From positions 1 through 64,000 of the forward strand of contig SCQH01000059.1 of NCBI GenBank assembly GCA_004321925.1: a stretch of 64,000 bases of DNA. The letters run 5' to 3'. Within the stretch, counting starts at the first letter, position 1. The number at the start of each line of letters is the position of its first letter. Below, in pieces: positions 3,412 through 31,751 of the stretch. Both the position numbers and the translations under genes were made by a program. Below the pieces are notes generated by a model. The model saw nothing but the letters and a program-made list of their open reading frames with translations. It made no database searches and was not told the DNA's origin. This DNA comes from Nitrospirota bacterium. GTDB lineage: Bacteria; Nitrospirota; Thermodesulfovibrionia; Thermodesulfovibrionales; UBA6898.

Positions 3412-5547
3412 ATGAGCATGAAGCGACTATTTAACGACGGGGGATATTCCGGATTACTGATCCTTTCGATTACACTATTCATTCTCCTTAACGATGCGGT
3501 CAGCGTCGAACACGGCTGGATACATCCCGAAGGATTGATCTATTCGGCACATTACCTGAGCAACGCATCCTTTGACCATGTTGGTCTTGACCTTAATCTT
3601 GCTGAAGCGGGGAAGATATTCTGGTGGGAGCAGCATGTTGACATGGGGCAGGGTCGTTTACTCACTGCATTATTTCAGCTGATCGACATTAAATTCAGGG
3701 CCTGGCTTTTCAGATATATCCCCCCGGGCCCGGCAGTTTCCGCCGGCTGGATAATAGGGCTCCTCTGCATCCCCGCTCTGCTCTACAACTTTGCACGAAA
3801 GTACCTCATTCTCGGGGCCCCTGCTGCGGCTTCTATCACTGCGCTTTTCCTGTTGTCTTCTGCCTCGGTGGGCTACACCTTCCAGTACCTGCATCCCGGG
3901 AAGATGCTTGCGGTCTTCTTTCTCCTGGTGGTACTGAATCTTATGCTGTTTTTGCGTGGGATAGAGAGCGGGGGCGCGGGGGAGGGCAGGAAGGGACTCA
4001 TGCTCTGGATAATGCTGGGGACGACGCTTTTTCTCTCACTGTTTACTGACCCTCTCGCATTCATAACCTTTCTGCTTGTCCCCGTCCTCTTCCCCGAGAT
4101 GTTCAGGGTAAGATTCAGTGGCGGCAACCGTTCCGGCGGACAGGTATATGCGGTTTATCTGGCGGTCATCGCCTGCTATGCTGCATCTGTATTATTGATC
4201 ATCCCCTATCTTTCGAAACTCTCCGGATACGAATACGGATTTCTTTATGCTGTTGAGGAGGCAAGGGGGAACAATCCCTTTATGAATATCGTGAATCCCC
4301 AGTTTTATTACGGGATCATGATGAATACCTATTGGTTCGTGACCGGGAATCTTGGACTGAGGGGATATCTGCCGCTCTATATCAGCGAGGACCGCTTATA
4401 TAGTTTCGAGCCGTCGCTTTACGTGACGGAGGTAAGTCTGGAGACAGTTGCTCCGTTGGTCATCGTGCACCTTGTGCTGATAGCTCTGTGTATAGCTGAC
4501 TATAGGTATTCTGACCGGAGATATGTCATAAAGGCCATTGCTGCGTTGTACCTGACAACCGGATGGATAACGCTGATACATTCATTTCAGAACGTCCTGC
4601 TGCCGTGGTCGAACTACTACTACGGTTCGGTGTTTTCCGTCGTCTTTGCGCTGCTGACCGGTTCCCTGCTCAGGACATTAAGGGGAAGGAGAGGGTTGTC
4701 TTATGCCGCGGTCGCGGTCGTGCTGATCGCCTCGTTCTCCACGTACGGGGATGCAAAGGAGATAAACCGAGCATGGAAATATTCGAGGTACCCGGATGTG
4801 GACATCGACGGGTTCTACCGGGGCTTTAAGGATTACTGGCATGAGATAAAAAGAGATCCTGAGCTGTTCGATAAAAAGATATGTATGGTCGATAAGGGGG
4901 TTTCGCTCCTGTTCAACTCTAAGAACCTTTACCCGGTGAAGGTCTGCTATAACACGGCGCTTCTGAAACGCATATCGTTTCGCTACCAAAGTGCGCTTAC
5001 TCTGAACTTCGCGGGATTCTGCCCTGACGAGGTTCCGCCCGCCGAGGGGGCTGCCGAGGATGTCGGTCCCCTCTGCAGTACGCTCGATACCGTTCCTGAA
5101 GTGATGAGTGAGGTTTCAGCCGATCCTGACATCGTTGCGGTGAGGGCAAGTTCGCAGTGGAAGCATTACGGGCCGCACCTGGTCTTTGACGGCATATCGT
5201 CCGATGAGAGTTCCTGGCATTCGGATCCGAACTCTCTTATACCCCAATGGCTGGAGTGGGAGCATGCAGTGCCCAGGATGATAACCGTCATTGCCATTCA
5301 GTCGCAGATGAACCCTCCGCACTTGAGCGGCAATGAATTGAGAGCTCCCCGCATTTTTGTGTTGTCCGGCAGCAATGATCGCCAGCAGTATACCGAACTG
5401 CTGAGAATAAAGAATGCAAGCATCGATCCCGGCACCTGGGGACAATGGCAGTTCGTTAATAAACAGGCATATAAATATTACCGTTTATGCATTCGGGAGA
5501 CTCAGGGCGAGTGCTTCGCTGCTGTTCAGGAGATACGGGTCCGGTGA
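3412..5547 (+). CDS. Polytopic membrane protein with C-terminal discoidin-like domain (paralog A)
   Basis: A 711-residue protein with about ten to twelve membrane helices over residues 10-450, a soluble region (about 450-560), and a C-terminal domain (about 565-711) that resembles an F5/8 type C (discoidin) carbohydrate-binding fold: ASSQW..., a DG dipeptide, SSWHS, SGSND and YKYYRLCI. The first outside loop carries conserved acidic and histidine residues (EHGW, WWEQHVDMGQGR) as in GT-C-like glycosyltransferases, but no family assignment is certain. A close paralog lies at 6342-8474, with a family 2 glycosyltransferase between them. I infer a membrane enzyme that moves or modifies lipid-linked sugars. 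ATG 3412 or 3418 could be the start; no clear ribosome site is visible. Confidence 0.75.
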   Translation: MSMKRLFNDGGYSGLLILSITLFILLNDAVSVEHGWIHPEGLIYSAHYLSNASFDHVGLDLNLAEAGKIFWWEQHVDMGQGRLLTALFQLIDIKFRAWLFRYIPPGPAVSAGWIIGLLCIPALLYNFARKYLILGAPAAASITALFLLSSASVGYTFQYLHPGKMLAVFFLLVVLNLMLFLRGIESGGAGEGRKGLMLWIMLGTTLFLSLFTDPLAFITFLLVPVLFPEMFRVRFSGGNRSGGQVYAVYLAVIACYAASVLLIIPYLSKLSGYEYGFLYAVEEARGNNPFMNIVNPQFYYGIMMNTYWFVTGNLGLRGYLPLYISEDRLYSFEPSLYVTEVSLETVAPLVIVHLVLIALCIADYRYSDRRYVIKAIAALYLTTGWITLIHSFQNVLLPWSNYYYGSVFSVVFALLTGSLLRTLRGRRGLSYAAVAVVLIASFSTYGDAKEINRAWKYSRYPDVDIDGFYRGFKDYWHEIKRDPELFDKKICMVDKGVSLLFNSKNLYPVKVCYNTALLKRISFRYQSALTLNFAGFCPDEVPPAEGAAEDVGPLCSTLDTVPEVMSEVSADPDIVAVRASSQWKHYGPHLVFDGISSDESSWHSDPNSLIPQWLEWEHAVPRMITVIAIQSQMNPPHLSGNELRAPRIFVLSGSNDRQQYTELLRIKNASIDPGTWGQWQFVNKQAYKYYRLCIRETQGECFAAVQEIRVR

Positions 5548-6341: not shown

Positions 6342-8474
6342 ATCGTCGAAAAATCATCACGGTTCAACAGTGCTGTAGCACTTCTGTTCATCGGGGCAGC
6401 GCTCTCCATTTTATTGGCCGATGCCGGCAGCATCGAGCACGGCTGGATACATCCCGAAGGACTGATCTACTCTGCACAGTATCTGAGCGACACATCATTT
6501 GACCACTTTGGCCTTGATTTTCATCTCACGGAAGCGGGGAAGATATTCTGGTGGGAGCAGCATGTTGACATGGGGCAAGGCCGAATTCTCACCGCGTTAT
6601 TTCAGCTGATCGATATCAAGTTCAGAGCCTGGCTCTTCAGGCATATGCCCCCGCATCCGGCGGTCTCAATGGGCTGGTTCGTGGGGATGATATGCAGCAC
6701 GGCGCTGCTCTATAACTTTACAAAGAAGTACCTCATTCTCGGGGCACCTGCGGCGGCGGCAATAACCTCACTATTTCTGCTGTCCCCTGCCTCAGCGGGC
6801 TATACCTTTCAGTATCTGCATCCCGGGAAGATGCTTGCGGTATTTTTTCTTCTGGTGGTATTGAATCTTGTGCTGCTATTGCGTGGGATAGGGAGCGGGA
6901 GCGCGGGGGAAGGCAGGAAGGGACTCCTGCTGTGGATAGTGTTGGGCCTGACGCTGTTCTTCTCGCTGTTTACGGATCCGCTTGTCTTTATAACATTTCT
7001 GCTTATCCCGGTCTTTTTTCCTGAGATGTTCAGGGTCTGTTTCAAAGGCGGCAATCGTTCCGGCGGCCAGGTATATGCGGTTTATCTGGCGGTCATCGTC
7101 TGCTATGCGGCAGCGGTGTTCCTGCTCATCCCCTATCTTTCGAGGCTTGCCGGATACGAATACGGATTCCTTGCCGCCGTTAAGGAGGCAAAAGGGAACA
7201 ATCCCTTCATGAATATCGTGAATCCCTGGTTCTACTACGGGGTCATGATGAATACCTACTGGTTCGTGACCGGGAACATAGGGCTGAGGGGATATCTGCC
7301 GCTCTATATCAGCGAGGACCGCCTCTATAGTTTCGATCCGTCGCACTACGCGGTGGAGGCAAGCCTGGGTACTCTTGCTCCTCTTGTTATCGTGCACCTT
7401 GTCCTCATAGCTCTCAGTGTTGCTGACTTCAAGTATTCTGATAAGAGATATATTTTGAAGTCAGTGCTTGCGCTGTATATAACGACAGGATGGATAACGC
7501 TGATACACTCGTTTCAGAATGTCCTGCTGCCATGGTCGACCTATTACTACGGTTCAGTGTTTTCGGTTGTCTTTGTGATGCTGATCGGAGCCCTGCTCAG
7601 GACACTGAGGGGAAGGAGAGGGTTGTCCTATGCCGCGGTCGCGGTCGTGCTGATCGCCTCGTTCTCCGCGTATGGGGATGCAAAGGAGATAAACCGTGCA
7701 TGGAAGTATTCGAGGTATCCGGAGGTGGACATTGACGGGTTCTACCGGAGTTTCAGAGATCACTGGCACGAGATAAAGAAGAATCCTGAACGGTTTGACA
7801 AGACGATATGTATGGTCGACAAAGGGGTGTCATTTGCATTTCAGCGGCAAAGGATTACCCCCCTTACGGAGTGCTACAAAATAAGCCTTTGGCACCAACT
7901 CTCCAGGGATTACAAAAATGTGCGAGCGCTGAATTTCGCCGGATTCTGTCCGGATCGCATTCCCTCCGCGGTTAAGCGTGTTGATGAACTCAGGCCCCTC
8001 TGCAGCACTGTCGATGCCGGTTCTGAGGTGATGAGCAGCGGCACGGCCAATCCTGACATCGTTGCAGTGAGGGCAAGTTCGCAGTGGCAGGATTACGGGC
8101 CGCAACTGGTGTTTGATGGCGTGTCGTCAGATGCGAGTTCCTGGCACTCATCTTTTCTCGCACCTCTTCCCCAATGGATAGAACCTGAATACGCCCACCC
8201 GAGGATTATGATAAGTATCTCAATACAGGCTCAAAACGACCATCGGTACGCAGGCATTAATGCCGGGAGGGCGCCCCAAGCATTTATGGTGCAGGGAAGT
8301 AACGACCGGAAGCACTATGCAGAACTGTTGAAAGTCAACGATGCGCATCTTCGGCCCGGCGAGTGGGGTGAATGGCGTTTTGAAAATAGCCGGGCGTATA
8401 AATATTACCGGGTCTGCATTCGTGAGAATTATGGGGACTGCACCGTAGCAATTCAGGAGATGCTGCTGAAATAG
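6342..8474 (+). CDS. Polytopic membrane protein with C-terminal discoidin-like domain (paralog B, unusual start)
   Basis: A paralog of the protein at 3412-5547: same helices, same EHGWIHPEGL and WWEQHVDMGQGR motifs, same discoidin-like tail. Stretches are nearly identical at the DNA level (compare 4680-4760 with 7608-7688), while the tails differ more. The only ordinary start codon near the N terminus is TTG 6414, which would remove the first membrane helix found in the paralog. The frame is open upstream to 6318, and homology to the paralog runs back to about 6342, where an ATC codon sits five bases after GGAG (6333-6336). I therefore extended the gene to 6342; an ATG-to-ATC change, a rare start or a sequence error are all possible. 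If TTG 6414 is used, the protein is 686 residues. Confidence 0.7.
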   Translation: MVEKSSRFNSAVALLFIGAALSILLADAGSIEHGWIHPEGLIYSAQYLSDTSFDHFGLDFHLTEAGKIFWWEQHVDMGQGRILTALFQLIDIKFRAWLFRHMPPHPAVSMGWFVGMICSTALLYNFTKKYLILGAPAAAAITSLFLLSPASAGYTFQYLHPGKMLAVFFLLVVLNLVLLLRGIGSGSAGEGRKGLLLWIVLGLTLFFSLFTDPLVFITFLLIPVFFPEMFRVCFKGGNRSGGQVYAVYLAVIVCYAAAVFLLIPYLSRLAGYEYGFLAAVKEAKGNNPFMNIVNPWFYYGVMMNTYWFVTGNIGLRGYLPLYISEDRLYSFDPSHYAVEASLGTLAPLVIVHLVLIALSVADFKYSDKRYILKSVLALYITTGWITLIHSFQNVLLPWSTYYYGSVFSVVFVMLIGALLRTLRGRRGLSYAAVAVVLIASFSAYGDAKEINRAWKYSRYPEVDIDGFYRSFRDHWHEIKKNPERFDKTICMVDKGVSFAFQRQRITPLTECYKISLWHQLSRDYKNVRALNFAGFCPDRIPSAVKRVDELRPLCSTVDAGSEVMSSGTANPDIVAVRASSQWQDYGPQLVFDGVSSDASSWHSSFLAPLPQWIEPEYAHPRIMISISIQAQNDHRYAGINAGRAPQAFMVQGSNDRKHYAELLKVNDAHLRPGEWGEWRFENSRAYKYYRVCIRENYGDCTVAIQEMLLK

Positions 8475-8587: not shown

Positions 8588-9544
8588 ATGGAAAAAGAGA
8601 GCCGACTCATAGAAATATTCTATCGCTCACTCTATAGAATCCGGAGAGTGGAAGAGGAGATCGTTGCCGTTTATCCCACGGACAAGATCAAGAGTCCGGT
8701 GCATCTGTCCATCGGTCAGGAGTTTGTATCTGTCGGTGTTTGTGAGGCACTCAGGCCGTCTGATGCGGTCTTCGGCACTTATCGGGGGCATGCCCTGTAT
8801 CTGGCAAAGGGAGGTGATCTCAGAAAGATGATCGCCGAACTCTATGGCAAACAGACGGGTTGCGCCAAGGGCAAGGGCGGCTCGATGCACCTGGCCGATG
8901 CTGCGCACGGAGTGATGGGGACATCTGCCATTGTCGGCACCACGATCCCCGTTTCGGTCGGATACGCGTATGCGCTCAAACTGAAAAGGGCTGATTCCGT
9001 TGCCGTATGCTTTTTCGGGGACGGAGCGGTCGATGAAGGAAACTTTCACGAGAGCCTTAATTTTGCTGCGCTGAAAAACACGCCGGTCCTCTTCGTATGC
9101 GAAAACAACTTTTATGCCATCCATTCGCATCATCTGACAAGGCACCATTCTGACAATCTCTGTGAGAGGGCGCGTGCGTACGGTATGCCTGCAGTCCGGA
9201 TCGAGGGTGGTGATGTCTTCAAGGTCTATGATGTTGCACGTGATCATATTGAGAGGATGAGAAGAGGCGAGTCCGGGCCGGTCTTCCTCGAGGTTATAAC
9301 CTGCCGCTGGAAAGAGCATGTCGGGCCCGGGGAGGACTTCCATCTCGGCTACCGCGAGGAGCAGGAGGTTGCCTGCTGGATCAAGGGGGATCAGGTTCCC
9401 CGGGTACGGGGTATGCTGGACGAGCAGATATGCAGGATAATTGAAAACGAGGTGGAGCAGGAGATCAGCAAGGCCTTCAGGTTTGCCGAGGAAAGTCGGT
9501 TCCCTGAAGCGGCCGAGCTCTATAAGGACCTGTACAAGGAGTAA
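8588..9544 (+). CDS. TPP-dependent dehydrogenase E1 component, alpha subunit
   Basis: A 318-residue alpha subunit of the pyruvate/branched-chain 2-oxoacid dehydrogenase E1 family. The thiamine diphosphate motif runs from GDGAVDEGN to CENN, about 30 residues apart, and KGKGGSMH is conserved. The usual second histidine in the YR-x-HGH loop is missing (YRGHALYL), so the active-site channel may differ from classical PDH. It overlaps the beta-subunit gene by one base, but no E2 or E3 gene is nearby. All neighbours are nucleotide-sugar genes, so a role in a PDH complex is unlikely. E1 alpha/beta-like enzymes are known to add two-carbon units to sugars (AviB1/AviB2 in avilamycin biosynthesis), and a similar role is inferred here. 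Confidence 0.85.
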   Translation: MEKESRLIEIFYRSLYRIRRVEEEIVAVYPTDKIKSPVHLSIGQEFVSVGVCEALRPSDAVFGTYRGHALYLAKGGDLRKMIAELYGKQTGCAKGKGGSMHLADAAHGVMGTSAIVGTTIPVSVGYAYALKLKRADSVAVCFFGDGAVDEGNFHESLNFAALKNTPVLFVCENNFYAIHSHHLTRHHSDNLCERARAYGMPAVRIEGGDVFKVYDVARDHIERMRRGESGPVFLEVITCRWKEHVGPGEDFHLGYREEQEVACWIKGDQVPRVRGMLDEQICRIIENEVEQEISKAFRFAEESRFPEAAELYKDLYKE

Positions 9545-10587
9545 TGGTGGAAAGGACACTGAGCTATTCCGAAGCGCTGCGTGAGGCCCTGGAGCAGGAA
9601 ATGGCGGCAGACCCGACGGTCGTTCTTTTTGGACTGGGCGTGGATGATCCCAAAGCCATCCTTGGTACCACAAAAGGGCTGCTTGAACGATTCGGTCAGG
9701 AGAGGGTCTTTGACACCCCCCTGGCAGAGGACGGCATGACCGGCGCTGCCATTGGTATGGCCCTTGCGGGCCTGAGGCCGGTGCATGTTCATATCAGGAT
9801 GGATTTTCTGCTCCTTGCCATGAACCAGATCATCAATATGGCGGCAAAGATGCATTATATGTTCGGGGGAGACCTTTATGCTCCCCTTGTCATCCGTTCG
9901 ATGATAGGGAAGAGCTGGGGGCAGGGACCGCAGCATTCCCAAAGCATCTATCCGCTTTTTATGAATGTCCCCGGTCTGAAGATCGTCGCGCCGACAACTC
10001 CGTATGATGCAAAGGGCTGCATGGTGCAGGCCATTCGCGACAATAACCCGGTTCTGTATATTGAGCACCGGCATCTGTACTATCAGAAGGGTTATGTCCC
10101 CGACCATCTGTATACCGTTCCCTTCGGCAAGGCCCGGGTCCTGAATCCGGGTGATGATATCACGTTGGTCGGTGTATCCCAGATGGCAGTTGAATGCCTG
10201 AGGGCGGCCAGACATCTTGAGGAGATCGGCATAAAAGCAGAGGTCATCGATCCGGTATCGCTGTATCCTCTTGACATCGAAACGATCAGCGCCTCGGCTG
10301 TCAGGACAGGACACCTGATCATCGTGGATAACTCCTGGATGACATGCGGCGCCGGCTCCGAGATCCTTGCCGTGCTTGCTGAGCGGGGGCTGCTGAAGAA
10401 GATCGATGTCCGGCGCATGGGTTTTGCTCATACGGCTTGTCCGACCACTCCGACGCTCGAAGCGCATTTTTATCCAGATGCCGGGAAGATAGCGGTCAGC
10501 GCTCATGACATGCTGAGCCCGGGGAAGAGATGGTCTCCGGCCGGTGAACTGCATCGGGAAGAAGTGGAATTTAAAGGTCCGTTCTAG
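9544..10587 (+). CDS. TPP-dependent dehydrogenase E1 component, beta subunit (transketolase-like)
   Basis: A 347-residue E1 beta subunit: N-terminal transketolase pyrimidine-binding domain (about residues 4-175; DTPLAEDGMTGAAIG carries the glutamate that activates TPP; QHSQS and PGLKIVAPTTPYDAKG are typical) and a C-terminal transketolase domain (about 195-320). Its ATG overlaps the TAA of the alpha subunit, so the two are made together and should form the usual alpha2-beta2 enzyme. There is no lipoyl-bearing partner in the window. Decarboxylation of pyruvate or another 2-oxoacid and transfer of the acyl unit to a keto sugar is the inferred role. A stand-alone oxidoreductase such as an acetoin dehydrogenase part is the alternative. 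Confidence 0.85.
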   Translation: MVERTLSYSEALREALEQEMAADPTVVLFGLGVDDPKAILGTTKGLLERFGQERVFDTPLAEDGMTGAAIGMALAGLRPVHVHIRMDFLLLAMNQIINMAAKMHYMFGGDLYAPLVIRSMIGKSWGQGPQHSQSIYPLFMNVPGLKIVAPTTPYDAKGCMVQAIRDNNPVLYIEHRHLYYQKGYVPDHLYTVPFGKARVLNPGDDITLVGVSQMAVECLRAARHLEEIGIKAEVIDPVSLYPLDIETISASAVRTGHLIIVDNSWMTCGAGSEILAVLAERGLLKKIDVRRMGFAHTACPTTPTLEAHFYPDAGKIAVSAHDMLSPGKRWSPAGELHREEVEFKGPF

Positions 10588-10617: not shown

Positions 10618-11610
10618 ATGAAAGTACTCATAACAGGTGTCACAGGGTTCGTCGGGAGTCATCTTGCAGAATATATACTTAATCTGAACGAAGGCCATGA
10701 TATATATGGCCTCTGCAGGTGGAGAAGTCCGAAAGACAACCTGATCAATGTCTATAACAAAATTAAACTGCTTGAGGCTGACCTCTGCGATCTCAGCGCC
10801 CTGACGAGACATTTCAGGGCTGTCAGGCCGGATATCATCTTTCACCTTGCAGCGCAGAGCTATGTTCTCACGAGCTTCAACTCACCCATTCAGACCCTCA
10901 CCGCGAATGTCATCGGGACGACAAACCTCCTTGAGGCAGTCAGGCTGTCCGACATTGATCCGGTGATCCATATTTGCTCATCGTCAGAGGTCTATGGCCA
11001 GGTGACCGAGGCCGACCTTCCGATAACTGAGGCCTGCCCGTTCAGGCCTGCCTCGCCGTATGCCGTCAGCAAGGTAGGAGAGGATATGGTCGGACTTCAG
11101 TACTGGCTTTCCTACAAGATCAAAACTATCCGCACGAGGATGTTCACCCATACGGGCCCCCGAAGGGGGGATGTCTTTGCCTTTTCAGCATTTGCCAAGC
11201 AGATCGCTGCCGCAGAACTTGGCCTGAAAGAGCCTGTTGTGCGTGTCGGAAATCTGAACTCTGTCCGGACGATATGCGATGTAAGAGATGCGGTGAAGGC
11301 TTACTGGATCATGGTCAATACCTGCAAACCGGGCGAGGTCTATAATATCGGGGGAAACCAGACGGTCACCATCGGGGACGGACTCCAGAAACTCCTGGGT
11401 TTTGCAAGAACGAAGCTTGAAGTCAGGGTCGACCCTGAACTTCTGAGACCTTCTGATGTGACACTCCAGATCCCGAGCACCGAGAAGTTTCAGAAGGAAA
11501 CCGGATGGAAGCCCGAGATCCCGCTCGAAAAGACCCTGCTTGACATCCTCGATTATTGGAGAGAAGAGCTCTCGAGAAACCCCTGGAAGGCCCTCACCGT
11601 AGAGAAGTAG
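10618..11610 (+). CDS. GDP-mannose 4,6-dehydratase family SDR (likely GDP-heptose or GDP-mannose 4,6-dehydratase)
   Basis: A 330-residue extended short-chain dehydrogenase. The NAD(P) motif is GVTGFVG (residues 7-13), the catalytic Tyr/Lys are Y148 and K152 (PYAVSK), with SSSEVYG before them and TGPRRGD after, the last typical of GDP-mannose 4,6-dehydratases (Gmd). The enzyme oxidises C4 and removes water across C5-C6 to give a 4-keto-6-deoxy sugar. Because the operon also encodes a GDP-heptose-forming kinase and guanylyltransferase, the substrate may be GDP-D-glycero-alpha-D-manno-heptose, as for DmhA of Yersinia and Campylobacter. GDP-mannose is the other choice. ATG 10618 is used; GGGGGAATG lies upstream. 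Confidence 0.8.
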   Translation: MKVLITGVTGFVGSHLAEYILNLNEGHDIYGLCRWRSPKDNLINVYNKIKLLEADLCDLSALTRHFRAVRPDIIFHLAAQSYVLTSFNSPIQTLTANVIGTTNLLEAVRLSDIDPVIHICSSSEVYGQVTEADLPITEACPFRPASPYAVSKVGEDMVGLQYWLSYKIKTIRTRMFTHTGPRRGDVFAFSAFAKQIAAAELGLKEPVVRVGNLNSVRTICDVRDAVKAYWIMVNTCKPGEVYNIGGNQTVTIGDGLQKLLGFARTKLEVRVDPELLRPSDVTLQIPSTEKFQKETGWKPEIPLEKTLLDILDYWREELSRNPWKALTVEK

Positions 11611-11611
11611 C

Positions 11612-13087
11612 ATGGCGAAAAAACTTGATGTCGTTCTTATTAATCCGGGCGACCGGAAACAGGTCTATCAGGGGCTTGCCGCTGATCTGTCGGCAGTTGA
11701 GCCTCCTTTCTGGGTTGCGGTAATCGCTGCGTACCTGAGGAACATTGGTTTGGGCGTTGAGATCATCGATGCCAATGCCGAAAATATAACGCCGGACGAG
11801 ACAGCTGCCCGTGTTAATGCGCTCAACCCGTCTCTTGCCGCAGTCATCGTCTACGGCTCCCAGCCATCCGGGTCTACCCAGAACATGACCATTGCCGGCA
11901 GGATCTGCCGGAGCCTTAAAGAGAACTCTTCAGCAAAAGTTGCCCTGGGAGGGCTGCATCCCTCGGCACTGCCCAAGCGCACACTTGAAGAGGAGTCTGT
12001 CGATTTTGTGATCGAAGGGGAGGGGCCGTTCACCCTGCAGGCGCTGCTTGAAGCACTCCGGTCCCCCGTGGCGGATCTCAGCCGGGTGCCCGGACTCTGG
12101 TACTATGACAAGGGTGTTGTCAGAAGCAATCCGCGGGCTGAACTCATCCGCGACCTTGACAAAGCGCTGCCGGTGGCTGCCTGGGACCTGCTGCCGATGA
12201 ATAAATACCGGGCGCACAACTGGCACTGCTTCGACGATATTGATCACCGCATGCCCTATGGCGCCATCTATACGAGTCTCGGATGTCCCTATAACTGTGT
12301 CTTCTGCTGCATCAATGCTCCCTTTGGAGGCCCCGGGATACGCTACCGGAGCCCTGAGCTGGTGGTCAGCGAGATCAGCCTGCTGGTTGAACAATACGGC
12401 ATAAAGAATATCAAGGTAGTGGATGAACTGTTTGTGCTGAACGAAAGGCATTATATGACTATCGTCGATATGCTCCTGCCGAAGGGGTATGACCTGAATT
12501 TCTGGGTCTATGCACGTGTTGATACGGTAAAACCCGAAAACCTCGATAAGATGAAAAAGGCCGGCATGAACTGGTTTGCTCTGGGGATTGAATCGGCCAA
12601 CCCGGACATCAGGGACCAGGCATCAAAGAGGATGAAGGTGCAGGATATCAAGCAGGTCGTCCGGAATGTCCAGGATGCCGGGATACGGGTCATCGGCAAC
12701 TACATCTTCGGACTCCCTGAGGATACCCGTGAGACCATGCAGGAGACACTCGACATGGCCATTGACCTGAACTGCGAGTTTGCAAACTTTTATTCTGCAA
12801 TGGCGTATCCCGGATCGAAGCTCTATGAGATCGCTCTCAAGGAAGGCTGGGACCTTCCCACGACATGGCACGGTTATTCACAGCACGCATACGAAACCTT
12901 GCCTCTTCCGACGAAGCATATCACTGCCCGGGAGGTCCTGAGGTTCAGGGACAATGCCTTTCATGCCTATTTTTCCAACCCCGGATACCTTGAAATGGTG
13001 GGAAGGAAGTTCGGCGACCATATCACGTCGCATATTCAGACGATGAGCTCGGTCAAACTGCCGAGAAAAATCTTGGAAGGAGAATGA
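11612..13087 (+). CDS. B12-binding-domain radical SAM protein (sugar-operon member)
   Basis: A 491-residue enzyme with an N-terminal cobalamin-type Rossmann domain (about residues 5-155, GGLHPSALPKRT near 113-124) and a radical SAM core with C225, C229 and C232 (CPYNCVFC) after TSLG. It starts two bases after the stop of the 4,6-dehydratase gene and precedes the heptose kinase, so it is very likely part of the same pathway. Possible jobs are C-methylation of a sugar ring or another radical step; no substrate can be read from sequence. It shares domain order with the enzyme at 1620 but is clearly a different protein. Confidence 0.85.
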   Translation: MAKKLDVVLINPGDRKQVYQGLAADLSAVEPPFWVAVIAAYLRNIGLGVEIIDANAENITPDETAARVNALNPSLAAVIVYGSQPSGSTQNMTIAGRICRSLKENSSAKVALGGLHPSALPKRTLEEESVDFVIEGEGPFTLQALLEALRSPVADLSRVPGLWYYDKGVVRSNPRAELIRDLDKALPVAAWDLLPMNKYRAHNWHCFDDIDHRMPYGAIYTSLGCPYNCVFCCINAPFGGPGIRYRSPELVVSEISLLVEQYGIKNIKVVDELFVLNERHYMTIVDMLLPKGYDLNFWVYARVDTVKPENLDKMKKAGMNWFALGIESANPDIRDQASKRMKVQDIKQVVRNVQDAGIRVIGNYIFGLPEDTRETMQETLDMAIDLNCEFANFYSAMAYPGSKLYEIALKEGWDLPTTWHGYSQHAYETLPLPTKHITAREVLRFRDNAFHAYFSNPGYLEMVGRKFGDHITSHIQTMSSVKLPRKILEGE

Positions 13088-13128: not shown

Positions 13129-14127
13129 ATGATCATCAGCAGAACACCTTTCCGCATCTCGTTTTTTGGTGGCGGCACTGACTATCCTGTCTGGTACCGG
13201 GAGAACAGCGGCGTTGTCCTGTCGACGACGATCAATAAATACTGTTACCTGAGCTGCAGGCGGCTTCCGCCGTTCTTCGAATATAAACACCGGATCGTTT
13301 ATTCAAAGACCGAACTTTCTTCGACGATCGATTCCATTGTTCACCCTGCAGTGAGGGAGACCTTCCGGTTCATGCATATCGACGAGGGGCTCGAGATCCA
13401 TCATGATGGTGATCTGCCAGCACGCTCCGGGCTCGGGTCGAGTTCATCGTTCACGGTCGGGCTGCTGAACGCCCTTCACGCTTTAAAGGGCAAGATGATA
13501 TCCAAAGAGCAGCTTGCCAAACATGCGATCTTTATCGAACAGCAGATGATAAAGGAGGACGTTGGTTCTCAGGACCAGATAGCAGCTGCATTCGGCGGTT
13601 TTAACCTTATCAAGTTCACTCGGGATGATCTTTTCAGTGTCAATACCGTTGTACTGAACCGGGAAAAACTCCAGGCCCTGGAAGACCATATGCTGCTGAT
13701 GTTCACCGGGTTTTCCCGGACCGCCGCTGAAATAGCGAAGGAGCAGATCAAGGAGACACCCAAAAAAGGGAAGGAATTGATCGCGATGGCACAGATGGTC
13801 GATGAGGCGCTCCTCATCCTGAACCGGGAAAGTGATGATGTCACTGACTTCGGGAAACTGCTTCACGAGGCCTGGCTCCTGAAACGGAGCCTGACGAACA
13901 AGATATCGAATCCCCAGATCGATGAGATCTATAGCGCCGCACGTGAGGCGGGGGCTTTGGGCGGGAAGCTTCTCGGAGCGGGTGGTGGGGGCTTCATGCT
14001 GCTCTTTGCCAGACCTGAAGACCATGCCGTGATCAGGGAGCGGTTGCAGGCATTTCTTTTTGTGCCCTTCCAGTTTGAGAATTCCGGCAGTCAGATCGTT
14101 GTGTATCAGCCTGACGGGCTTTACTGA
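13129..14127 (+). CDS. hddA: GHMP kinase, D-glycero-alpha-D-manno-heptose 7-phosphate kinase type
   Basis: A 332-residue GHMP-superfamily kinase. It opens with RTPFRISFFGGGTDYP, typical of HddA-type sugar kinases, has the ATP-binding loop LPARSGLGSSSS (residues 96-107), and ends with the GGKLLGAGGGGF loop. HddA phosphorylates C1 of D-glycero-D-manno-heptose 7-phosphate on the way to GDP-heptose. The gene directly after it is an HddC-like guanylyltransferase, three bases downstream, which strongly supports the heptose assignment. GmhA and GmhB, needed for the earlier steps, are not in the window. A fucose/galactose-type kinase is a weaker alternative. Confidence 0.82.
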   Translation: MIISRTPFRISFFGGGTDYPVWYRENSGVVLSTTINKYCYLSCRRLPPFFEYKHRIVYSKTELSSTIDSIVHPAVRETFRFMHIDEGLEIHHDGDLPARSGLGSSSSFTVGLLNALHALKGKMISKEQLAKHAIFIEQQMIKEDVGSQDQIAAAFGGFNLIKFTRDDLFSVNTVVLNREKLQALEDHMLLMFTGFSRTAAEIAKEQIKETPKKGKELIAMAQMVDEALLILNRESDDVTDFGKLLHEAWLLKRSLTNKISNPQIDEIYSAAREAGALGGKLLGAGGGGFMLLFARPEDHAVIRERLQAFLFVPFQFENSGSQIVVYQPDGLY

Positions 14128-14130
14128 TGG

Positions 14131-14862
14131 ATGTCTGACCTTCCTGCTCTTGCTGAAATCGATGTCCTTATCCTCTGCGGGGGGATCGGCAGCCGGCTGA
14201 AGCCGGCGGTCTCGGACAGGCCAAAGCCGATGGCAGAAATCAGCGACCGGCCCTTCCTGGATATCCTCATCGACCATGTATCAGGTTTCGGGTTCAGTCG
14301 TTTTATTCTCTGCACCGGGTATATGAAGGACAGCATAAGCGGGTATTACCGGAATAAGACCGCCCCCGTCGAAATCGTATTCTCTGAAGAAGAGATGGCG
14401 CTGGGCACCGGCGGTGCTCTCCGGAATGCAGAAGGTCATATAAAGAGCAGGAGCTTTATCGTCATGAATGGCGACTCGTTTTGCCCCATGAATTACAGAG
14501 AATTCACTGAGTTTCATTTTGCAAGGAAGTCCGTGATATCCCTGGCCCTGTCATATGTCAGCGATGCATCAGAGTATGGGATCGTCGAATGTGATTCCTC
14601 CTTCCGGGTAACATCATTTTCCGAGAAGGGTAAAAAAAAGGAAGGCCTGGTCAACACGGGCATTTACCTGATGGAACGTCAGGTCTTGTCCCGGATCCCC
14701 GCAGGCAGGGCCTATTCTCTTGAATATGATCTTTTTCCCTCGTATATAGGACAGGGTTTTTACGGCTATACTACCGGAGAAGGATTTATTGATATAGGAA
14801 CACCTGAGCGCTACGATAAGGCGCGTACACTATTATCACAACGATACAGGAAGGAGACATAG
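14131..14862 (+). CDS. hddC: Nucleotidyltransferase, D-glycero-alpha-D-manno-heptose 1-phosphate guanylyltransferase type
   Basis: A 243-residue sugar nucleotidyltransferase with the signature LCGGIGSRLKP...DRPKPM (residues 15-34) and MNGDSF for metal and sugar phosphate binding. It is short, as HddC and other single-domain enzymes are. It follows the HddA-type kinase with a three-base gap, so its likely product is GDP-D-glycero-alpha-D-manno-heptose. Its stop codon is directly followed by the ATG of the DegT-fold gene, and its last codons (AAG GAG ACA) provide that gene's ribosome site. The nucleotide (GTP rather than CTP or dTTP) is inferred from context. Confidence 0.8.
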   Translation: MSDLPALAEIDVLILCGGIGSRLKPAVSDRPKPMAEISDRPFLDILIDHVSGFGFSRFILCTGYMKDSISGYYRNKTAPVEIVFSEEEMALGTGGALRNAEGHIKSRSFIVMNGDSFCPMNYREFTEFHFARKSVISLALSYVSDASEYGIVECDSSFRVTSFSEKGKKKEGLVNTGIYLMERQVLSRIPAGRAYSLEYDLFPSYIGQGFYGYTTGEGFIDIGTPERYDKARTLLSQRYRKET

Positions 14863-16092
14863 ATGGGTGGCGGAATAATACGAATACCTTTTGGGACCAT
14901 GACCATAACCGAGAGGTCGAAACAACTGGTGATCGAGGCGCTTGATCGCGGCCGGGTTTCAAGCGGCAGGTATGTCAGGGAATTTGAGAAGAAGTTTGCA
15001 GAGCTGGTTGGAGCCCGGGAGGCGGTGGCCGTGAGTACGGGCACGGACGCCGATGCGCTGGCACTGGCGGTCCTGTATGATTTGGGGGCGAGTCGGGGGG
15101 ATGAGGTCATCATACCGGCACTTTCCTTTGTCGCGACGGGCAATGCGGTCCTCCAGGCAGGTTTTACTCCGGTATTTGTCGATGTCGAGCGTGAGACCCT
15201 CAATATCGATCCCTCAAAAATTGAGGCGGCGATCACCCCGAAGACGCGCGCGATCATGCCGGTACATCTCATGGGCAAACCTGCTGAAATGGATTCGATC
15301 AAGGCCATTGCTGTTCGTCATAAACTCCTTGTTATTGAAGACGCTGCCGAGGCCCATGGAGCTGTCTATAAGGGCAAAAATGCCGGAACCCTGTGCGACA
15401 TGGGTGCCTTCAGCCTCTATGTTGCCCACATTATCAGCACCGTCGAGGGGGGGATCATTACAACGGACAATGAGTCCTATGCCGGGGTACTGAGGTCGCT
15501 CCGCAGCCATGGAAGGGCCTGCAAGTGCGAGAGTTGCGTGCTTAATACTGCCAGTGCCTTTTGCGCAAAGAGATTCCAGTTCGGTGAGAACGCTGATATC
15601 AGGTTTGTCTTTGAACGAGTCGGTTTTTCGTCTAAAATGAACGAACTTGAGGCAGCTGTCGGCCTGGGCAATCTGGACATCTATAATGAGATCCTGAATA
15701 AGCGGAGGGAGAACCTGTATTATCTGCTCGATAAGTTCAAGGCCTTCAGTCAGTATTTCATGACATTATCAAAGGAACCATACGAGGAGATCGGGCCGCA
15801 TGCCCTCCCCATGATCATCCGGGAGGGCTCGGGATTTACACGGTCTGACCTGACCGCTTATCTCGAGAAGAACGGGATCGATACAAGGACTCTCTTCAAT
15901 TCCATTCCGACGCAATGTCAGGGATTCGCCTACCTTGGCCATAAGATGGGTGATTTCCCGAATGCCGAGTATATCGGTGAACAGGGCATCCATATCGGTG
16001 TCCATCAGGACATCGGCCGGAGGGAATGCGATTATATCCTTGACGTGATTGAAAAGTTTATTTCGGGACATACTCTATCCAAAAAACAATGA
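14863..16092 (+). CDS. DegT/DnrJ/EryC1-fold sugar 3-dehydratase-like protein with His in place of the PLP lysine
   Basis: A 409-residue aspartate-aminotransferase-fold protein of the DegT family. The cofactor aspartate is D160 (VIEDAAEAHG). Where aminotransferases have the PLP-binding lysine, this protein has H189 (SLYVAHIISTVEGG). That change marks the 3-dehydratase branch: ColD (GDP-4-keto-6-deoxymannose 3-dehydratase) and RfbH/E1 (CDP-4-keto-6-deoxyglucose 3-dehydratase). Cysteines C178, C220, C222, C225 and C234 lie in the region where RfbH/E1 binds a [2Fe-2S] cluster, though spacing differs from E1. It probably removes the C3 hydroxyl from the 4-keto-6-deoxy product of the upstream SDR, with PMP. 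No E3-type reductase gene is nearby. It starts at base 0 after hddC and overlaps the PilZ gene by four bases. Confidence 0.8.
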   Translation: MGGGIIRIPFGTMTITERSKQLVIEALDRGRVSSGRYVREFEKKFAELVGAREAVAVSTGTDADALALAVLYDLGASRGDEVIIPALSFVATGNAVLQAGFTPVFVDVERETLNIDPSKIEAAITPKTRAIMPVHLMGKPAEMDSIKAIAVRHKLLVIEDAAEAHGAVYKGKNAGTLCDMGAFSLYVAHIISTVEGGIITTDNESYAGVLRSLRSHGRACKCESCVLNTASAFCAKRFQFGENADIRFVFERVGFSSKMNELEAAVGLGNLDIYNEILNKRRENLYYLLDKFKAFSQYFMTLSKEPYEEIGPHALPMIIREGSGFTRSDLTAYLEKNGIDTRTLFNSIPTQCQGFAYLGHKMGDFPNAEYIGEQGIHIGVHQDIGRRECDYILDVIEKFISGHTLSKKQ

Positions 16093-30268: not shown

Positions 30269-31150
30269 ATGCAGGAATGTATAGACAGATTCATCCGCTA
30301 CCTTGAGGTTCAGCGGGCTGCTTCTGAACATACGGTCCGGGCATACAAAAAAGACCTTGCGGAATTCAACTCCTTTGTAAAGAAGGCCCCTGCCGAGATC
30401 GAAATGATCGACGTCAGGGGGTTTATCGCGCAACAGATCAGGACCGGCCTCAGCAAAACGACGGCAGGCAGGCGGTTGGGAGCTGTCCGCTCGTTCCTGA
30501 AATATCTCTACCGGGAAGGGGTCATCAGCGTCAATCCGGCAAAGCTTGTTTCGACCCCGAAGACACAACGGCTCCTGCCCCAATTTCTGACAGTGGATGA
30601 TGCCTTTGAACTGATCGAAAAACCTGAGGGCATCGGATTTATGATGGCCAGGGACAGGGCGATCCTTGAACTGCTTTACTCAAGCGGTCTGAGGGTGAGC
30701 GAGGTTTCAGGTCTGAATATGGAGGACCTCAATACCAGGGAAGGTCTGGTCAAGGTCCGGGGCAAGGGGAAAAAGGAGCGGATCGTTCCCGTCGGTGCCA
30801 AGGCAATAGAGGCGCTCAAGACCTATCTGGTCGAAAAGATACTGCTGAAGAAAAAGAGCAGGGTGCTCTTCCTCAACAGAAGCGGCACAAAGCTGACCGA
30901 CAGGGGGATCCGGAGGATCGTCGTCAAATATGCGCGTCAGGCAGGGATCGACGGCAGGATCGGACCGCATACGCTCAGGCATACCTTTGCCACTCACCTG
31001 CTTCAGGGCGGTGCAGACCTCAGGGTGATCCAGGAGCTCCTGGGGCATTCCTCGCTCTCGACGACACAGAAGTATACGCACCTTGACCTGACCCATCTCA
31101 TGGATGTCTATGACAAGGCCCACCCCATGTCGGATAAGGACGGAAAATAG
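30269..31150 (+). CDS. xerC: Tyrosine recombinase XerC
   Basis: A 293-residue site-specific recombinase. An N-terminal SAM-like DNA-binding domain (about residues 1-90) precedes the catalytic domain with R142, K166, H234, R237, H260 and nucleophile Y269. XerC resolves chromosome dimers at dif with XerD. ATG 30269 is chosen because it opens directly on the typical helix (MQECIDRFIRYL); an upstream start at 30233 would overlap trmFO. Operon position between trmFO and hslV supports XerC over a phage integrase. Confidence 0.93.
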   Translation: MQECIDRFIRYLEVQRAASEHTVRAYKKDLAEFNSFVKKAPAEIEMIDVRGFIAQQIRTGLSKTTAGRRLGAVRSFLKYLYREGVISVNPAKLVSTPKTQRLLPQFLTVDDAFELIEKPEGIGFMMARDRAILELLYSSGLRVSEVSGLNMEDLNTREGLVKVRGKGKKERIVPVGAKAIEALKTYLVEKILLKKKSRVLFLNRSGTKLTDRGIRRIVVKYARQAGIDGRIGPHTLRHTFATHLLQGGADLRVIQELLGHSSLSTTQKYTHLDLTHLMDVYDKAHPMSDKDGK

Positions 31151-31220
31151 GCAGTTGATTGATGACAGCACACGCGGTTATTGTGTAAACTAACAGTCAA
31201 AATCAAACCATGAGGTGATG

Positions 31221-31751
31221 ATGTTCCACGCAACGACAATATTGTGTGTCAGCAGGGGGGGAAGGGTCGCGATCGGCGGTGACGGCCAGGTTACGCTCGG
31301 CAATACCGTGCTCAAGCATAACGCCAAAAAGATACGCAAGATGTACGGGGACAAGGTCCTTGCAGGGTTTGCGGGCGCAACGGCAGACGCCTTTACCCTG
31401 TTCGAAAAATTCGAAGGTAAGCTTGAGGCCTACCGGGGCAACCTCACGAGGGCTGCGGTGGAGCTTGCTAAGGACTGGCGGACCGACAAGGTCCTGCGGA
31501 GACTTGAGGCCCTGCTGATCATTGCCGACAAGGAGCATACCTTTATCATATCCGGGACCGGAGATGTGATCGAACCCGAGGAGGGTTATGCGGCGATCGG
31601 GTCAGGGGGTGCCTATGCACTGGCCGCTGCAAAGGCCCTTTATGACAACACCGACCTTAACGCCCGGGAGATCATCGAACGGTCGATGAAGATCGCCTCA
31701 GGCATCTGCATCTATACCAATGAAAATATCAGCATCGAGGAGCTTTCATAG
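31221..31751 (+). CDS. hslV: HslV, proteolytic subunit of the HslUV protease
   Basis: A 176-residue N-terminal threonine protease. After MFHA come TT, the likely mature end and nucleophile, then GGDGQVTLG and [14 protein letters not shown] as in all HslV. It forms a double hexamer that degrades proteins unfolded by HslU. ATG 31221 is placed five bases after GAGG (31212-31215); two other start codons lie just before (31215, 31218). The three residues before TT must be removed to free the threonine. Confidence 0.93.

Follow-up and report, generated by a model that had tools for sequence, protein, structure and literature searches.

The DegT-fold protein P0001, encoded in the analyzed window of 64,000 nucleotides from a Nitrospirota bacterium, is, judging from gene and protein sequences, most likely a vitamin B6 enzyme that removes one oxygen from a seven-carbon GDP-sugar ahead of a two-carbon branching. 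More precisely, we consider it fairly probable that P0001 is a PMP-dependent C3-dehydratase of GDP-6-deoxy-4-keto-heptose, probably Fe-S dependent, which feeds the branching step. The assignment draws on the sequence and its conservation, on phylogeny, on gene context and on the replacement by a ColD-type enzyme in Azospirillum. The features concerned are compiled in Table 1.

Table 1. Features of P0001 and its operon in the window
Feature	Position	Strand	Evidence
ThDP enzyme, E1 alpha-like subunit	8588..9544	+	PF00676, 214 bits; ThDP motif GDG...NN
ThDP enzyme, E1 beta-like subunit, predicted C2 carboligase	9544..10587	+	PF02779 and PF02780
GDP-heptose 4,6-dehydratase-like SDR, would supply the 4-keto substrate	10618..11610	+	PDB 7us5
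B12-binding radical SAM protein	11612..13087	+	PF02310 and PF04055
HddA-like GHMP heptose-phosphate kinase	13129..14127	+	PDB 3k85, 2.7e-42
HddC-like D-glycero-D-manno-heptose-1-phosphate guanylyltransferase	14131..14862	+	PDB 6jq8/5xhw, 148.9 bits
P0001, candidate DegT-fold His-type sugar 3-dehydratase, 409 aa	14863..16092	+	ORF, PF01041, PDB relatives
A161-A162, aligned to E1 C192-C193	15343..15348	+	fourth cluster cysteine of E1, C193, missing
C178, unconserved	15394..15396	+	G30, A12, C1
H189 codon, place of the PLP lysine, aligned with E1 H220	15427..15429	+	43/43 Cys-bearing; 14/14 and 3/3 of two related groups without the cysteines
Cys loop R218-F238 (C220, C222, C225, C234), candidate Fe-S site	15514..15576	+	43/43; E1 alignment
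C352 of the PTQC motif	15916..15918	+	invariant, 43/43

P0001 starts with an ATG behind a good ribosome-binding site (aggaaggag), and its coordinates, its reading frame and the positions of H189, C178, C220, C222, C225 and C234 had been given exactly in an earlier note on this DNA. The Pfam model DegT_DnrJ_EryC1 (PF01041) matched the protein with 322 bits. No NCBIfam equivalog cut-off was reached; the best model, RfbH, gave 270.1 bits against a cut-off of 423. The best full-length sequence relatives in the PDB were E1 (3bcx/3bb8) and ColD. With its DegT fold, the histidine and, by gene content, a location in an NDP-4-keto-6-deoxy-sugar pathway, P0001 has the features of the NDP-sugar C3-dehydratase class. 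A literature search on the cysteine-bearing DegT family and on DegT/heptose clusters of Omnitrophota and Nitrospirota found nothing on the family.

A scan of GTDB genomes and a scan of the phylum yielded more than 50 close homologues of P0001 with 47-77% identity, distributed over Nitrospirota, Planctomycetota, Omnitrophota, Elusimicrobiota, Thermodesulfobacteriota, Chloroflexota, Spirochaetota, archaea and others. The cysteine-bearing set comprised 43 sequences from many phyla (60-77% identical), P0001 and a few near-duplicates included. H189, which sits in FSLYVAHIISTVEGG, was invariant in this set and in both related groups without the cysteines. C220, C222, C225 and C234 were each conserved in the entire cysteine-bearing set, far above chance, with the spacing C-x-C-x2-C-x8-C in 36 sequences and x9 in place of x8 in 7. 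The earlier note had counted C178 as a fifth member of this cluster. Conservation upheld the four loop cysteines and removed C178, since 42 of the 43 sequences have Gly or Ala at this position; private to P0001, C178 does not belong to a conserved cluster. Outside the loop, C352, which had not been listed before, was present in all cysteine-bearing sequences and in 12/14 of the Cys-less sister group.

E1/RfbH of Yersinia (PDB 3bcx, 3bb8) shares with P0001 the DegT fold, the catalytic histidine, three cysteines of the [2Fe-2S] loop and the loop flanks GR...KRF. C220, C222 and C234 align with C251, C253 and C261 of E1 (PDB numbering), and K/R236, R237 and F238 after the last loop cysteine are common to the P0001 family and E1. 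The cluster ligands of E1 are residues which we take to be C193, C251, C253 and C261 (C-x57-C-x-C-x7-C), numbers consistent with the E1 sequence; their assignment reportedly goes back to work by Agnihotri in 2004, as cited in PMC8987622. Three of these four are conserved in P0001. Position 193 is Cys in 13/13 E1/RfbH sequences and Ala in 43/43 sequences of the P0001 family, whereas C225 is invariant in the P0001 family and absent from E1. From the alignment, C225 appears to take over from C193 as fourth ligand from within the loop, and the four conserved cysteines probably hold an iron-sulfur cluster that is arranged unlike that of its known relative E1. The earlier note described the spacing as different from that of E1, which is correct for the fourth ligand only; because the other three cysteines align, the departure from E1 is smaller than was stated there. 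P0001 also differs from E1 in its longer loop and in its GDP-heptose context, that of E1 being CDP-hexose. Filing P0001 under RfbH was rejected on the alanine at position 193, the score below the cut-off and the tree placement. In a motif scan, no E3-type reductase or ferredoxin gene was detected near P0001-type loci, a result that is uninformative because the RfbH loci that served as positive control gave none either. Fer2-domain proteins are present elsewhere in the genome of P0001.

The P0001 family is a clade of its own, sister to 14 Cys-less proteins from Omnitrophota. H189 is retained in the latter, which are ~59-63% identical to P0001, and the loop is missing altogether. The same applies to another group, formed by three archaeal sequences (~50% identical). 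In the tree calculated with the loop columns, each of four groups (cysteine-bearing, Cys-less sister, archaeal and RfbH/E1) lay on one side of a branch. After removal of the loop columns, all 77 His sequences were still split from the 5 Lys aminotransferases at one branch (100/98), and E1 joined ColD, away from the P0001 family. P0001 was placed outside the RfbH clade with or without these columns. ColD joined E1 on a long branch, so its exact position is unsure, as is that of the likewise long-branched homologue L094. The trees agree with the earlier reading of the histidine as the mark of NDP-sugar 3-dehydratases, and they set P0001 apart from ordinary Lys aminotransferases. The proposal of a separate subfamily was supported: P0001 groups with neither E1/RfbH nor ColD and is distinct from both by their defining features. 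A single clade of all CxC-bearing sequences was rejected on the loop-free columns (AU p 0.0006), and the cysteine loop was thus either acquired or lost on more than one occasion; an ancestral loop that then disappeared several times is compatible with this. Some His-type DegT proteins (L062, L064, L065) form a deep branch of their own; they have no cysteines, and VTGVGG replaces TxxEGG.

ColD, the GDP-4-keto-6-deoxy-D-mannose 3-dehydratase of E. coli O55, resembles P0001 in its catalytic histidine, its GDP-sugar context and its C-terminal NAEY...HQ motif. In Azospirillum, a ColD-type gene adjoins the same kind of ThDP alpha/beta genes as P0001 does. However, P0001 is just 32% identical to ColD and lies on a different branch of the tree, and ColD has none of the loop cysteines that are invariant in the P0001 family. 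The C-terminal motif is closer to ColD than to E1, a point in favor of a C3-dehydratase in which the four cysteines carry a structural zinc. Such an enzyme would use ColD-like catalysis, with glutamate regenerating PMP and no external electrons, as would the Cys-less sister; C-x-C-x2-C-x8-C could also bind zinc, and these sisters, ~60% identical, retain H189, the active-site motifs and the gene context. We nevertheless judge a zinc site unlikely, because three of the four cysteines occupy cluster positions of E1 between the same flanks, GR and KRF.

The genes between 8588 and 16092 run in one direction and encode E1-alpha, E1-beta, the SDR, the B12-radical SAM protein, the GHMP kinase, the nucleotidyltransferase and P0001. 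The best PDB match of the SDR was the GDP-D-glycero-D-manno-heptose 4,6-dehydratase 7us5 (283 bits, identical SSSEVYG), followed by the GDP-6-deoxy-4-hexulose reductase 2pk3 (226 bits). The kinase matched best the D-glycero-D-manno-heptose 1-phosphate kinase 3k85, and the nucleotidyltransferase a protein of the 6-deoxy-D-mannoheptose pathway (6jq8/5xhw), with 146.6 bits for NF049965, below its cut-off of 300. GmhA-like and GmhB-like genes were found elsewhere in the genome. The GDP-sugar context suggested for P0001 in the earlier note is therefore strong, and by the neighboring genes it is narrower than was said there, namely GDP-heptose. The genes at 8588-10587 lie in a deoxysugar cluster and encode an alpha/beta pair of the E1 type that binds ThDP, the features of the alpha-ketoacid-dehydrogenase-type (aKADH2) C2 carboligases of branched sugars (AviB1/AviB2, KbDH-alpha/beta), which are also ThDP alpha/beta pairs in sugar-modification clusters. 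Unlike these, P0001-type pairs belong to GDP-heptose polysaccharide clusters of anaerobic Gram-negatives and some archaea and stand beside a His-type dehydratase, and in other P0001-type genomes their place is filled by split transketolases. HpnJ was the nearest NCBIfam model for the radical SAM protein, which is conserved in P0001-type clusters and might C-methylate or rearrange the sugar. Upstream, two very similar ORFs of ~700 aa (3412-5547 and 6414-8474) form an apparent tandem duplicate, the second without a Pfam match.

The mechanism described for E1, ColD and SpnQ starts with a PMP ketimine at C4, followed by His-assisted loss of the C3 hydroxyl and then by either [2Fe-2S] electron transfer or hydrolysis and glutamate recycling (PMC8987622). 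SpnQ, the Fe-S-containing His-type 3-dehydratase of the spinosyn pathway, receives electrons from ferredoxin or flavodoxin systems; by its description, it differs from P0001 in its dTDP-sugar substrate and in a four-cysteine [2Fe-2S] motif like that of E1 (PMC8987622). For GDP-6-deoxy-4-keto-heptose, a glutamate-dependent C3-dehydratase is known from C. jejuni, which is 62-67% identical to ColD (PMC10440746). In the scheme proposed for P0001, we infer the cofactor, the cluster, the electron donor, the substrate, the product and the branching step. The neighboring kinase, guanylyltransferase and 4,6-dehydratase would convert D-glycero-D-manno-heptose phosphate to GDP-6-deoxy-4-keto-heptose, with which P0001 and its PMP would form a ketimine at C4. 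H189 would act as the base, and the C3 hydroxyl would be expelled. The resulting PMP-bound 3,4-ene intermediate would then be reduced via an Fe-S cluster on C220, C222, C225 and C234, as in E1, to give GDP-3,6-dideoxy-4-keto-heptose. General ferredoxin or flavodoxin systems might provide the electrons for the cysteine-bearing members, which would follow the electron-transfer route, and the Cys-less members would follow the hydrolysis/glutamate route. Both kinds of member were found in the same gene context, and an Fe-S cluster is thus not essential to the pathway chemistry in general. Finally, the ThDP alpha/beta enzyme would add a two-carbon unit at the C4 ketone, leading to a branched surface sugar, with the split transketolase standing in for this step in other genomes. 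In antibiotic pathways, keto sugars receive C2 units from ThDP E1-type pairs (PMC12247030, PMC4753412); for split transketolases, C2 transfer is a proposal so far untested, and the enzymes put forward to date are all from streptomycetes (PMC12247030).

The gene context in other genomes was surveyed at 45 loci, none shorter than 12 kb. A kinase was present at 35/45, a nucleotidyltransferase at 33/45 and a B12-radical SAM protein at 30/45 loci. E1-alpha/beta genes were found at 24/45 and split transketolase genes at 14/45; either occurred at 36/45 and both at only 2/45. The split transketolase (TKn/TKc) replaces E1-alpha/beta beside the dehydratase at the non-streptomycete loci L009, L010, L017, L018, L022, L026, L030, L031, L032, L043 and L066. 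In the complete genome of Solidesulfovibrio magneticus RS-1, the whole module lies on plasmid pDMC1 (L120), flanked by transposases and composed of radical SAM, kinase, E1-alpha/beta, Fcl-like, cysteine-bearing DegT (30419-31624), SDR, nucleotidyltransferase and SIS genes. A homologue of P0001 also occurs in Geomonas limicola. On a plasmid of Azospirillum ramasamyi, alpha/beta genes whose products are 56/60% identical to those of the window are directly followed by a ColD-type DegT gene. The encoded protein, analyzed for one of the two Azospirillum plasmids (L121 and L122), contains FSHHISTMEGG and is 49% identical to E. coli ColD; a HddC-like/HAD fusion is encoded close by. By annotation, the gene order is the same on a plasmid of A. 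lipoferum. A ColD-type dehydratase thus occupies the place of P0001, which argues for the same reaction.

The substrate could still be another 4-keto GDP-sugar, or the His/PMP chemistry could serve another step, such as 2- or 3-epimerization or removal of a different hydroxyl, in which case the assignment to C3 of a heptose would be wrong. The neighboring kinase, guanylyltransferase and dehydratase score far under the curated NCBIfam cut-offs, and in many related clusters the GDP-heptose dehydratase-like SDR is absent and another SDR takes its place. L094, moreover, adjoins a GDP-mannose dehydratase. Given that the characterized His-type relatives are C3-dehydratases (PMC8987622) and that ColD replaces the P0001-type gene in a related cluster, we regard such a different substrate or step as improbable, and the GDP-heptose C3-dehydratase remains the preferred assignment. 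Another Nitrospirota genome (L123, 9194-10435, minus strand) encodes a homologue with 34-36% identity to P0001 and a loop of the form C-x-C-x2-C-x6-C (GRACNCILC-x6-C). It adjoins a true GDP-mannose 4,6-dehydratase (530.7 bits, cut-off 415) and is possibly an Fe-S GDP-hexose 3-dehydratase.

An AF2 model of P0001 built with 52 homologues had a pLDDT of 93.9 and a pTM of 0.92, with residues 221-240 at ~67. Using the cysteine-bearing homologues alone, the pLDDT was 89.3 and that of the loop 66-68, and no confidence was gained in the loop. By E-value, Foldseek ranked sugar aminotransferases (7b0m, GDP-perosamine synthase) and E1 at the top; among the matches listed, the query-normalized TM-score was highest, at 0.89, for the E1 variant H220K (3bb8). 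Despite the DegT fold and the GDP-perosamine synthases among the best structure and sequence matches, P0001 is very unlikely to be a normal sugar aminotransferase, or a homologue without catalytic function whose lysine has been lost, since the histidine is invariant in 60 related sequences from many phyla, the active site is intact and conserved, and the tree position is apart from the Lys enzymes.

Only tentatively, and with less confidence than in the C3-dehydratase itself, we propose that the family constitutes a third kind of B6-dependent sugar 3-dehydratase. It would comprise a single-loop, four-ligand Fe-S enzyme for GDP-heptoses, the distant ligand of E1 having moved into the loop, beside a Cys-less clade in equivalent clusters, so that one family would hold both electron-driven and glutamate-driven members, and it would make the precursor of an undescribed C2-branched heptose, a nine-carbon sugar, in anaerobes. 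For the same deoxygenation, E1 uses iron and ColD does not, and the clades around P0001 bear on how this split arose. With one clade possessing the loop and a close sister from the same kind of gene cluster lacking it, the role of the putative Fe-S cluster becomes testable between two enzymes that are ~60% identical. The relocation of a ligand, if true, would open an evolutionary approach to the construction of such clusters. The P0001-type gene clusters predict C2-branched heptoses that would be made via pyruvate-type or transketolase-type ThDP enzymes.
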